Positions 9,664 to 12,496 of a stretch of 64,000 nucleotides of DNA are shown here, piece after piece. The notes below the pieces were generated by a model that worked only from the letters and a program-made list of their open reading frames with translations, was not told the origin of the DNA and searched no databases. Position numbers and translations under genes: made by a program. Each line of letters opens with the position of its first letter. Position 1 is the first letter of the stretch. Origin of the DNA: Cellulosimicrobium funkei. Lineage in GTDB: Bacteria > Actinomycetota > Actinomycetes > Actinomycetales > Cellulomonadaceae. Location: assembly GCF_004519295.1 (NCBI RefSeq), contig NZ_SOZH01000003.1, positions 310,001-374,000 on the forward strand, read 5' to 3'.

Positions 9664-11289
9664 TCAGCGGGCGGGTTGCTCCGCGCCCGGCGCCACCTCG
9701 TGGAGCCGGCCGTCCCGGTCGAGCTCGAGCAGCACGTCGACCCCGAGGCGGGCGAGGAACCCGTCGTCGTGGCTCACCACGAGCAGCGCGCCCGCGTAGC
9801 CCGACAGCGCCTCGACGAGCCGCTCGACGCTGCGCACGTCGAGGTCGTTCGTCGGCTCGTCGAGCACGAGGAGCTGGGCGGGCGGGTCGGCGAGCAGGAG
9901 CCGTGCGAGCGCGACGCGGAACCGCTCGCCGCCCGACAGCGTGCCCACCGGGCGGTCGACGGCCGACCCGCGCAGGAGCAGGCGCGCGAGGTGGTTGCGG
10001 ACCGTGCCCGGCGCCACGCCCGGGGCGCCGTCGCGGACGGTGTCGAGCGCGCTGCGCGCGTCGTCGAGGCCGTCGCGCCGCTGCGGGAGGTAACCGACCC
10101 GGTCCGTGAGGAGCGTCCCGCCGGCGCGTCCCGGCTCGGGCGCGCGCCCGGCGAGCAGGTTCTCCAGGAGCGTCGTCTTGCCGGTGCCGTTCGCCCCCAC
10201 GAGCGCGACCCGCTCGGGCCCCTGGACGACGACCGTGCGGTTCGTCCCGTGCAGCTCGGCGAGCCGACGGCCGCGCGGGACGTCCGGGTCCGGCAGCACG
10301 AGGTGCACGTGCTCGTCGTCGCGCACTCGGGCCGCCGCCGCGTCGAGCGCCTGCTGCGCGGCCTGGACCTTGGCGTCCAGGCCCTGGCGCATCGAGCCCG
10401 CCGAGACCTGGGCCGCGGACGCGCGCAGCCCCATGGAGATGCGTGACCCGGTGCGGTTCGCCTGGGCGGTCCGCGCCGTCCGCTCGCGGCGCGCGAGCTT
10501 CGTCTCGGCCTCGACGCGCCGGCGCTTCTCGGCGCGCAGGGCCTGCTCGGCGCTCCGCGCGGCCTGCGCCGCCGCGGCCTGGTCGACCTCCAGCTGCGCG
10601 CGCCACGCGCTGTACGGGCCGCCGAACGTGGTCAGCGCGCCCGCGTGCAGCTCGGCGGTCTCGTCGACGTGCTCGAGCAGCTCCAGGTCGTGGCTCACGA
10701 CGACGAGAGCCCCGGGCCAGTCGTCGACGAGCACGGCGAGCCGGGCCCGGGTGGCACGGTCGAGGTTGTTCGTCGGCTCGTCGAGCAGCGTGATCGCGCT
10801 GCGCCGCACGCGCAGGCCGCTGATCGCGACGAGCATCGCCTCGCCGCCGGACAGCTCGCCGACGCGCCGGTCGAGGCCGACGCCGTCGAGCCCGATCTCG
10901 GCGAGCGCCTGGGCGGCGCGCGCCTCGACGTCCCAGTCGTCGCCGACGGCGTCGAAGTGCCGCTCGTCGACGTCGCCGGACTCGATCGCGCGCAGGGCGT
11001 CGAGCGTCGCGTCGATGCCGAGCAGGCGCGCGACGCTCGCGTCGCGGCCGAGCGTGAGCGTCTGGGGGAGGTAGGCGACGTCGCCGGTGGTCGTCACGCG
11101 CCCGGAGGTGGGCGTGAGCAGGCCGGCGACGAGGCGCAGGAGCGTCGACTTGCCGGCGCCGTTGTCGCCGACGAGGCCCGTGCGGCCGGTGCCGAACGTG
11201 CCGGAAAGGTGGGAGAGCGCGACGGTGCCGTCGGGCCACTCGAACGTGAGGTCGGTCAGCGTCACCGCGGACCGGTGCAGGGTGGACAT
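9664..11289 (-). CDS. ABC-F family ATP-binding protein (ribosome protection type)
   Basis: 541-aa protein with two ABC ATPase cassettes and no membrane domain. Cassette 1 has Walker A GDNGAGKST (~41-49), signature LSGGEAM and Walker B ITLLDEPTNNLD. Cassette 2 has GANGTGKTT, LSGGERFRVALARLLL and LLVLDEPTNDLD. A charged helical linker (~230-310, rich in Arg/Ala/Glu) joins them; in ABC-F proteins this linker reaches into the ribosomal P-site region and displaces bound antibiotics. Known members give resistance to macrolides, lincosamides, streptogramins or pleuromutilins; which drug applies here cannot be told. The ATG at 11289 follows AGGAG (11297-11301). A 226-base leader, a hairpin and a short leaderless ORF lie upstream, suggesting attenuation control. 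Confidence 0.9.
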   Translation of the reverse strand: MSTLHRSAVTLTDLTFEWPDGTVALSHLSGTFGTGRTGLVGDNGAGKSTLLRLVAGLLTPTSGRVTTTGDVAYLPQTLTLGRDASVARLLGIDATLDALRAIESGDVDERHFDAVGDDWDVEARAAQALAEIGLDGVGLDRRVGELSGGEAMLVAISGLRVRRSAITLLDEPTNNLDRATRARLAVLVDDWPGALVVVSHDLELLEHVDETAELHAGALTTFGGPYSAWRAQLEVDQAAAAQAARSAEQALRAEKRRRVEAETKLARRERTARTAQANRTGSRISMGLRASAAQVSAGSMRQGLDAKVQAAQQALDAAAARVRDDEHVHLVLPDPDVPRGRRLAELHGTNRTVVVQGPERVALVGANGTGKTTLLENLLAGRAPEPGRAGGTLLTDRVGYLPQRRDGLDDARSALDTVRDGAPGVAPGTVRNHLARLLLRGSAVDRPVGTLSGGERFRVALARLLLADPPAQLLVLDEPTNDLDVRSVERLVEALSGYAGALLVVSHDDGFLARLGVDVLLELDRDGRLHEVAPGAEQPAR

Positions 11290-11303
11290 GGGTGTGCTCC
11301 TCG

Positions 11304-11321
11304 GCCCGCGGTGCCGCGGGC
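11304..11321 (-). promoter_or_regulatory. Hairpin next to the ABC-F ribosome-binding site
   Basis: A GC-only dyad (arms GCCCGCGG / CCGCGGGC) ends three bases upstream of the AGGAG of the ABC-F gene. It could limit ribosome access or act with other leader structures. Confidence 0.45.
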
Positions 11322-11515
11322 GTGGTCGTGCCGGGAAGGTCGGGCGGGCCGTCGTCGCGCGGGCGCGCGGACGGGCCGCCGGTGGCGGGAGCGGTGGGGC
11401 GTCGTCCCGGCACGCCGAGGCCGCGGCACGAGCCGGGCAGGGGTCGCCGACGAGGGCTCCGACGGGGCGGAGCGGGCGAGGGGTGCGCTGGGACGGGCCG
11501 CCGACGGCTCGGCGG

Positions 11516-11542
11516 CTAGAGTCTGTCGACCTCGATGAGCAC
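11516..11542 (-). CDS. Short upstream ORF in the ABC-F leader
   Basis: An 8-codon ORF (GTG start, peptide V/M-L-I-E-V-D-R-L, TAG stop) begins exactly six bases after TAGCAT, the same spacing as the leaderless genes of this window. The ABC-F start lies 226 bases downstream on the same strand. Short uORFs before antibiotic-resistance genes are known to sense stalled ribosomes (erm leaders, actinobacterial whiB7). The proposed role is to sense translation inhibitors and release the ABC-F gene from attenuation (inference). It is too short for homology support; the evidence is promoter geometry and gene context. Confidence 0.5.
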   Translation of the reverse strand: MLIEVDRL

Positions 11543-11548
11543 GTGCCG

Positions 11549-11554
11549 ATGCTA
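11549..11554 (-). promoter_or_regulatory. -10 box TAGCAT upstream of the ABC-F leader
   Basis: TAGCAT on the minus strand ends six bases before the GTG of the uORF at 11542, so the transcript would start at or beside that codon. I see no convincing -35 element. Confidence 0.55.
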
Positions 11555-11593
11555 GCAGCGCGGCCCGGCGGGGTCTGCGGGCGCGGGGGCCCG

Positions 11594-12496
11594 TCACCCC
11601 GCCGGAGCCTGCTCCCGACCCGTGGCGAGCGAGGCGACGAGCGAGGCGACGAGCGCCGCGGCGGCCGCGCCCGGGTGCGGCCGCGTCACGAGCCCGAGGG
11701 ACCACGCCTCCGGCGCGTCGAGCGGCACCGCGACCGCGCCCGGCGCGGGCTCGTACATGTCCGCGGGGACCACCGCGACGCCGAACCCGGCGGCGACGAA
11801 CGCGGGCAGGTCGCCGACGTCGGCCACCTCCGTGTCCGCGCGCGGCGCGACGCCCGCGTGCACGAACGCGCGCTCGGCGACCACCCGGTTGCCGAACCCG
11901 CGCGGCGTCGTCACGACGTGCTCGTCGGCCAGGTCGCCGGGCGCCACCGACCGCGCCCCGGCGAGCGGGTGGCCCGCGGGCAGCACCGCGACGAACGTCG
12001 ACGACGTGAGGCGCGTGTACCGCAGACCGGGGTGGTCCTCGGGCCCGAGCCCGGTGAACGCGACGTCCACGACACCGCGCCGCACGTCCTCCCCGAGGCC
12101 CGTCGACCCGGCGGGCGACGGGGTGAGGCGCAGCACCACGCCGGGGTGCCGGTCCCGGAACGCGGCGAGGGTGCGCGGCAGGCCGAGGTACCCGAGGTTC
12201 GTGAACACCCCGAGCCGCACCGTGCCGCGCACGTGGTGCGGCCCGGGGGCGACGGCGGCGCGGGCCTGGTCGACGGCGTCGAGCACCGCCCGGGCCCGGG
12301 GGAGCAGCGCCTCGCCCTGCGACGTGAGCGCGACCGAGCGCCGCGTGCGCTCGAACAGACGAGCGCCGAGCTCGGCCTCCAGGGCACGCACGCCCGCCGA
12401 GACGCTCGACTGCACGGCGAAGACGCGCGCGGCGGCGCGCGTGAAGCTCAGCTCCTCGGCCACGGCGACGAAGTACTCGAGCTGGCGCGTCTCCAT
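11594..12496 (-). CDS. LysR family transcriptional regulator
   Basis: 300-aa LysR-type regulator. The N-terminal winged HTH (METRQLEYFVAVAEELSFTR, then SSVSAGVRALEAELGARLFE) spans ~1-60. The periplasmic-binding-fold effector domain follows (~88-295), including VRGTVRLGVFTNLGYLGLPR. The ATG at 12496 is confirmed by TAGGGT seven bases upstream (12504-12509), so the message is probably leaderless; the ORF could be extended to 12529 but without HTH gain. It is divergent from an MFS transporter gene across 95 bases, the classic arrangement for a LysR regulator controlling its neighbour and itself. The inducer is unknown. Confidence 0.9.
   Translation of the reverse strand: METRQLEYFVAVAEELSFTRAAARVFAVQSSVSAGVRALEAELGARLFERTRRSVALTSQGEALLPRARAVLDAVDQARAAVAPGPHHVRGTVRLGVFTNLGYLGLPRTLAAFRDRHPGVVLRLTPSPAGSTGLGEDVRRGVVDVAFTGLGPEDHPGLRYTRLTSSTFVAVLPAGHPLAGARSVAPGDLADEHVVTTPRGFGNRVVAERAFVHAGVAPRADTEVADVGDLPAFVAAGFGVAVVPADMYEPAPGAVAVPLDAPEAWSLGLVTRPHPGAAAAALVASLVASLATGREQAPAG

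Follow-up and report, generated by a model that had tools for sequence, protein, structure and literature searches.

A predicted leaderless upstream reading frame with an adjoining hairpin as a putative drug-responsive attenuator of resistance genes in Cellulosimicrobium and other Actinobacteria

An ABC-F gene of Cellulosimicrobium funkei is probably controlled by a ribosome-mediated attenuator that is read by a leaderless upstream open reading frame (uORF), in which drug stalling at an Asp-Arg (D-R) step would free the expression of the gene. The element lies in a 64,000-nt stretch of contig NZ_SOZH01000003.1 (positions 310,001 to 374,000), hereafter the window, in which all coordinates below are numbered. 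Sequence comparison supports the uORF, its promoter geometry, the hairpin adjoining it (H1), the link to resistance genes, the change of the peptide with the gene, and an alternative helix in 25 relatives. On balance, we also lean towards a wider proposal of a modular sensor across Actinobacteria, in which one leaderless promoter-uORF-hairpin chassis would stand before ABC-F, Cfr-like, and Cmx/CmrA genes, and the drug would be set by the residue (V/I or A/S) that precedes the arrest residue, just ahead of a fixed Arg-AGA.

On the minus strand of the window, an extended -10 promoter element (TGC-TAGCAT, 11549–11557) without a -35 match precedes the uORF, and no sigma-70 type two-hexamer match occurs in 11200–11700. 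TAGCAT (11554–11549) is followed after six bases by a GTG at 11542, which opens the predicted leaderless uORF of eight codons, GTG CTC ATC GAG GTC GAC AGA CTC TAG (11516–11542, minus strand) encoding (V/M)LIEVDRL. The preliminary description had read the same arrangement from TAGCAT to the VLIEVDRL-TAG frame (11554–11516) and had placed the ABC-F start 226 bases after the uORF stop, and both readings are confirmed in the sequence, with the ATG at 11289. The predicted stall site (11522–11527, minus strand) consists of the Asp codon GAC in the P site (11527–11525) and the rare Arg codon AGA in the A site (11524–11522), and these two columns are among the most conserved of the uORF. H1, a perfect 8-bp hairpin GCCGCCGA-GCCG-TCGGCGGC (11497–11516, minus strand, inverted repeat I7), begins with the final base of the uORF stop codon and is the hairpin conserved in relatives; it had been missed in the preliminary description. 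The 226 nt from the uORF stop to the ABC-F start (11290–11515, minus strand) take in most of H1 and also a GC hairpin (11304–11321, minus strand, inverted repeat I5) just 5' of the ribosome-binding site GAGGAG (11297–11302, minus strand, assigned by eye), and a similar inverted repeat was seen by eye in close orthologs. This GC hairpin had been described as touching the ribosome-binding site and as the switch; it is present, but it ends one base before GAGGAG and does not enclose it, and the best-supported element is instead H1 adjoining the uORF stop.

The presumed controlled gene (9664–11289, minus strand, ATG at 11289) encodes a 541-aa protein with two ABC ATPase domains. Its best NCBIfam model is the ribosomal protection-like ABC-F NF000355 at 300 bits, below the cut-off of 380, so the ABC-F label denotes the two ABC domains and the best models only. 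A plasmid search with the window ABC-F protein gave no match at E 1e-100.

According to the proposed mechanism, transcription would start at the GTG or about one base away from it, and a ribosome would load on the 5' end and translate the eight codons. Without the drug, the ribosome would end at TAG and leave, H1 would form, and the transcription or translation of ABC-F would be kept low. With a ribosome-targeting drug bound, the nascent IEVD peptide would block transfer to the Arg (AGA) at D-R, and the stalled ribosome would cover the H1 5' arm, leaving the loop and 3' arm free for alternative pairing and allowing ABC-F to be expressed. The leading edge of a ribosome lies about 16 nt on from the P-site codon, so that with the D codon in the P site the edge would fall near the end of the H1 5' arm. 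Relatives with the same chassis would read V/I-D-R before ABC-F and Cfr-like genes and A/S-(S/D)-R before Cmx/CmrA genes, the residue before the P-site residue setting the drug. We infer the stalling, the sensed drug, and whether transcription or translation is the controlled step.

The promoter-start match of the window means little by itself, since TAGCATNNNNNNGTG occurs three times in the 4.38-Mb genome and its reversed control twice. The uORF is more than chance because it is conserved: RTGNNNATHGARGTNGAYMGNNNNTAG, a pattern for x-IEVDR-x-TAG, matched in 16 of the 221 genomes of the family and its reversed control in none, with 15 of the 16 matches preceding an ABC-F gene and one lying at a contig end. 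A covariance leader model (R3) scored 71.2 bits at 11493–11559, the next-best place in the 64-kb window reaching 13.0. Rfam searches gave nothing near the gathering score for the window leader and the L136 leader at permissive E-values, and only a tRNA matched at the gathering score in five further loci.

Within the genus, an ABC-F ortholog was found in 12 of 17 genomes, 11 of which have the upstream sequence. The uORF and H1 are almost invariant in nine of these 11, third codon positions included, with diverged flanks, and the two orthologs of 72–73% identity keep IEVDR (MDIEVDRL and MEIEVDRV). The near-invariance in nine close Cellulosimicrobium orthologs, extending to third codon positions, could suggest a DNA operator or part of a promoter, with the reading frame being incidental. 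Across genera, however, start codons swap between GTG and ATG, the N-terminus changes by whole codons, and synonymous changes occur while the C-terminal E-V/I-D-R-x stays, and the pairing of H1 is kept at its one free pair, all of which makes an operator very improbable. Codon-level conservation in relatives, the check named by the preliminary description, was found, and the comparison overall gives good support to the leaderless geometry, the intact conserved uORF, and the tie to a resistance gene.

Among ABC-F orthologs of at least 68% identity, the R3 leader precedes 20 of 24; the remaining four comprise one with a variant VLIHVD-TGA (18 bits), two whose gene lies directly behind another gene, and one without upstream sequence. 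The leader was found before none of the 27 orthologs at 58–66% identity and before none of the 17 paralog loci, in a survey covering 51 of the 79 listed ABC-F places and with R3, like the other leader models, favouring look-alikes. Fifteen loci with weak matches below 30 bits were inspected (L058–L072), and an ABC-F gene was present at L063 only, the other 14 being treated as noise. The outlier L063 (genome G346) has the peptide MELIEVPDN with the same -10 element, TAG, H1, and an ABC-F gene; D-R is thus not universal.

A pattern over the uORF end and H1 matched 59 stretches in a named genome collection. As the pattern fixed NTC-GAC-AGR and TAG, the V/I, D, R, and TAG of the leaders found with it are not free evidence. 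Five stretches (L082, L102, L103, L110, and L112) without start, promoter, or gene were dropped by eye, in agreement with a promoter-start script; L084, L100, and L126 also fail this script, yet were kept among the remaining 54. In 51 of the 59 stretches (51 of the 54 kept), an in-frame ATG or GTG follows TANNNT after 6–7 nt, and these 51 have a uORF of 7–9 codons ending in E-(V/I)-D-R-x-TAG with H1 adjoining. The distance from the -10 box to the transcription start averages 6.3 nt in S. lividans (PMC8079986), and given the 6–7-nt spacing of TANNNT the transcript should start at the uORF start codon. The N-terminus varies by whole codons, as in MIEVDRI, MLEVDRL, MDIEVDRI, METIEVDRA, and MLIDEIDRA, with E-(V/I)-D-R-x-TAG and H1 in register. 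Most H1 stem positions were forced by the search pattern, and the only free pair in these rows is A-T, G-C, or G-T and never A-C.

The 54 kept loci come from Cellulosimicrobium, Oerskovia, Cellulomonas, Promicromonospora, Arthrobacter, Leifsonia, Microbacterium, Agromyces, Herbiconiux, Leucobacter, Mycetocola, Nocardia, Rhodococcus, Prescottella, Saccharopolyspora, Amycolatopsis, Streptomyces, Microbispora, Microtetraspora, and Nonomuraea, and the ABC-F form of the leader is present in two records of Prescottella equi (Rhodococcus hoagii). One Cellulosimicrobium-like record among the 54 carries the name Sphaerisporangium. The ABC-F protein of L099 (QAPD01000045.1, Sphaerisporangium cinnabarinum ATCC 31213) is 95–97% identical to that of the window, and the record looks mislabelled.

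The leader is common to unrelated resistance genes, which the preliminary description had not noticed. Judged by the nearest gene among the tested families, 40 of the 54 kept loci belong to ABC-F, 10 to a Cfr-like radical-SAM methyltransferase, and four were too short. Leader lengths range from 91 to 850 nt in a leader set from which L182, L204, and L207 are absent for technical reasons. Three of the 10 methyltransferases were scanned and scored 379–384 bits with TIGR04432 (rSAM_Cfr), below the cut-off of 550, and 220–230 with the RlmN model; the enzymes of the relatives are Cfr-like, well above RlmN and under the Cfr cut-off. In Microtetraspora malaysiensis (L119:3180-6468), a single leader stands ahead of a Cfr-like gene with an ABC-F gene behind it, which looks like a resistance operon.

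Searches with the leader models matched in 15 of 394 class genomes, in 19 of 220 genomes of the family of G909 (with L188 as noise), and in 20 of 181 genomes of the family of G907 (with L206 lacking a gene); L188 and L206, neither of which has a gene, stay out of the gene counts. Besides more ABC-F genes, the searches gave a second peptide type, MSSPEASRx or MSSPESDRx, in leaders that share the promoter and H1 and precede Cmx/CmrA chloramphenicol pumps. Three of these pump proteins were scanned and scored 502–535 bits with NF033135, above the cut-off of 400. A further pump family (L200–L202) has the same kind of leader with TEADR, the L200 pump reaching 172 bits to the Cmx/CmrA model NF033135, below its cut-off of 400.

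Four plasmid cmx-type loci were read by sequence. The cmx uORF of pTP10 from Corynebacterium striatum (L228:732-797), MSSPESDRSGVVGHTASPLNH after TAGAGT, looks leaderless and begins with MSSPESDR; its first eight residues equal those of L167, and five codons differ synonymously. R3 found no match on the pTP10 cmx locus, so the model's H1 hairpin is missing from this leader. Rhodococcus qingshengii cmrA has MSSPKASRL with H1, and Streptomyces clavuligerus has MSTPESDRR reading on through H1; the cmx-type plasmid locus L231 showed no such leader. In 12 of the 18 cmx leaders, a sense codon stands in place of TAG and the uORF runs through H1 to 20–25 codons, which shows that TAG is not essential. 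The stop codon is lost in these 12 cmx leaders and in one related pump leader (L175–L178, L180–L187, and L202), where the translated H1 reads RPPVRRW, RPPALRW, WPPVPRW, and the like. A ribosome ending past H1 would cover its 3' arm and could also fit attenuation.

The peptide end changes with the gene. In 48 model-found uORFs, D/S is presumed to occupy the P site, and the residue before it is V or I in all 22 ABC-F leaders, A or S in all 22 Cmx leaders, and A in all three related-pump leaders, L206 being without a gene. The script for this set recognised V, I, A, S, T, L, and G as the counted residue and no others, and some of the counted loci had helped to build R3. The residue after D/S is R in 46 of the 48, K in one (L197, AAA), and T in one (L199, ACA).

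The Arg codon at this position is AGA or AGG in 46 of the 48 and CGN in none, against two AGA/AGG among 121 Arg codons in three genes of the window; selection on the peptide does not explain the conserved rare codon. The pTP10 uORF, found by protein homology, likewise uses AGG. Such codon usage would be expected if the uORF sensed slow AGA decoding, through scarce or uncharged tRNA-Arg-UCU or general translation stress, with drugs merely slowing translation. We consider this reading unlikely, as L197 and L199 carry Lys and Thr codons there, the preceding residues are also conserved and differ with the downstream gene, and the identified downstream genes are of resistance type with none for Arg metabolism. 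Stalling by a drug bound to the ribosome is retained as the preferred account of the D-R step.

The resemblance of the peptide ends to known arrest peptides suggests which drugs may be sensed. ErmBL, the ermB leader, is longer than the leader peptides described here and is translated from a Shine-Dalgarno site. In the account of macrolide stalling of ErmBL in PMC4935803, R7 and V9–K11 are critical, and an Arg at position 11 raises the efficiency threefold. The arrest point V9-D10-K11 thus has Val-Asp followed by a basic residue, as in V-D-R here, and by this likeness V-D-R fits a macrolide-type arrest. A macrolide-type drug for V-D-R is, however, a guess by analogy: ErmBL also requires Arg7 (PMC4935803), which is absent here, the window peptide having Ile at the matching place three residues before D, and XD(R) is not among the erythromycin motif classes given in passages of PMC6238534 (+X(+), XP(X), +X(W), and XP(W)). 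The uORFs described here have 7–9 codons and a predicted leaderless start, and without Arg7 the window uORF may work like ErmBL rather than be an ErmBL.

The CmlA leader belongs to another organism group. Its arrest motif is KNAD (PMC10192921), with Ala before Asp as in the EAD-R, ESD-R, and EAS-R of the pump leaders, and stalling by chloramphenicol and linezolid favours Ala at the penultimate position, with Ser or Thr next (PMC8987054). The A/S-(D/S)-R ends would accordingly fit a chloramphenicol arrest. The pump leaders, unlike that of CmlA, look leaderless and have H1 in common with the ABC-F and Cfr leaders.

Many ABC-F and Cfr leaders contain a conserved block, CACCGGCAYGTTCGC, that lies mostly about 100 nt downstream and is complementary to the H1 loop and 3' arm. 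Searching by pattern placed it in 35 of 76 ABC-F/Cfr leaders, the genus of the window being among the 41 without it. The alternative helix of 13 bp pairs 94.4% of cells in 25 non-redundant block-bearing leaders, against 29–43% for slid versions, part of this pairing being inherent in the selection of leaders for their block. Its covariation score (0.140 versus 0.108) is above 500 of 500 shuffles, and three pairs are changed on both sides, as many as were attained in 27 of 500 shuffles. A further possible partner of the block, TGCGAACG, was seen by eye beyond it in several leaders. As far as predicted pairing tells, the block-bearing leaders show the layout of a classical 1:2 / 2:3 / 3:4 attenuator.

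Queries with the H1 arms alone gave no signal of a third segment in ABC-F or Cfr leaders, with z values for the 3' arm of 0.07 (ABC-F, n=55) and 0.23 (Cfr, n=10), and the query extended to the H1 loop gave -1.07 (s.e. 0.19, n=42) for ABC-F and -1.25 (s.e. 0.22, n=6) for Cfr. In cmx leaders, a mid-leader segment complements the H1 3' arm (z -1.70, s.e. 0.23, n=23). A leader's own H1 beats foreign H1s of the same family in 63% of ABC-F, 92% of Cfr, and 59% of cmx comparisons; since foreign H1s pair only a little worse than the own, the covariation is modest.

The leader of the window itself has no conserved third segment, the best H1 partners differing between species, and no terminator-like site, so its switch could be H1 alone. 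With respect to the RNA part only, H1 itself might act as a terminator, as for msrD, without a three-way switch in the window species. The missing third segment, the absence of the block from 41 of the 76 ABC-F/Cfr leaders, and the raised T content in the 8 nt after H1 (24% in ABC-F and 33% in Cfr leaders, compared with 16% and 17% elsewhere in the leader) are in keeping with such a terminator, but the lack of a terminator-like site in the window leader, the distant, covarying partner of the loop and 3' arm of H1 in 25 related ABC-F/Cfr leaders, and the 3'-arm complement carried by cmx leaders leave it a possible yet doubtful explanation. Alternative pairing of the H1 loop and 3' arm is the reading that we prefer.

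Peptide-controlled attenuation of ABC-F genes in streptococci and Streptomyces and leaderless amino-acid leader peptides in S. lividans are known already. MsrDL (MYLIFM) of streptococcal msrD is a very short peptide before an ABC-F gene whose stalled ribosome lets RNA polymerase pass a terminator, and it differs from the present leaders in its peptide, its occurrence in streptococci, and its stalling at termination by blocking release factors (PMC10314930). The ARE5 attenuators lmrC, tiaA, and are5sc also represent uORF-based attenuation of ABC-F genes in Streptomyces, whereas their uORFs, given in passages of PMC8546547 and PMC12421871 as MLV and MVGDDDISG, have ribosome-binding sites and include no IEVDR peptide, and they are stalled at the start codon by lincomycin, clindamycin, tiamulin, and pristinamycin IIA but not by erythromycin. 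The leaderless amino-acid attenuators of S. lividans (leuL and trpL) are likewise short leaderless reading frames, some of them followed by hairpins (PMC8079986), and the polycysteine uORFs of mycobacteria are counted in the same class of amino-acid attenuators. Amino-acid attenuators hold codons of the sensed amino acid, whereas the leaders described here are without such a run and are followed by resistance genes.

A literature search covering mainly papers outside subscription journals turned up neither a leaderless drug attenuator of this type nor a leader common to ABC-F, Cfr-like, and Cmx genes, although there may be earlier studies of cmx, cmr, or cmlR leaders. Leaderless uORF switches may have been overlooked because they lack the Shine-Dalgarno signal, a cue used by uORF4u, which includes a Shine-Dalgarno search for prokaryotes (PMC10219788). 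The findings suggest that Actinobacteria, which are rich in leaderless transcripts, run a class of antibiotic attenuators that dispense with ribosome-binding sites, and that unrelated resistance genes have come to share one leader. They also offer a testable link between the uORF peptide sequence and the sensed drug; follow-up on uORF consensus, resistance, and inducibility "is warranted" according to PMC10201436.

Other short reading frames were observed before more distant ABC-F relatives. At 64–65% identity, five loci (L151–L154 and L157) have a short uORF behind GAAGG that, read by eye, runs from MTG or MTD to an R before TGA. Two relatives at 58% identity (L155 and L156) have a leaderless-looking ATG-TGA start-stop pair 6–7 nt after TANNNT and about 133–138 nt 5' of the start of the ABC-F match, an arrangement that would be suited to drugs halting the ribosome at initiation.
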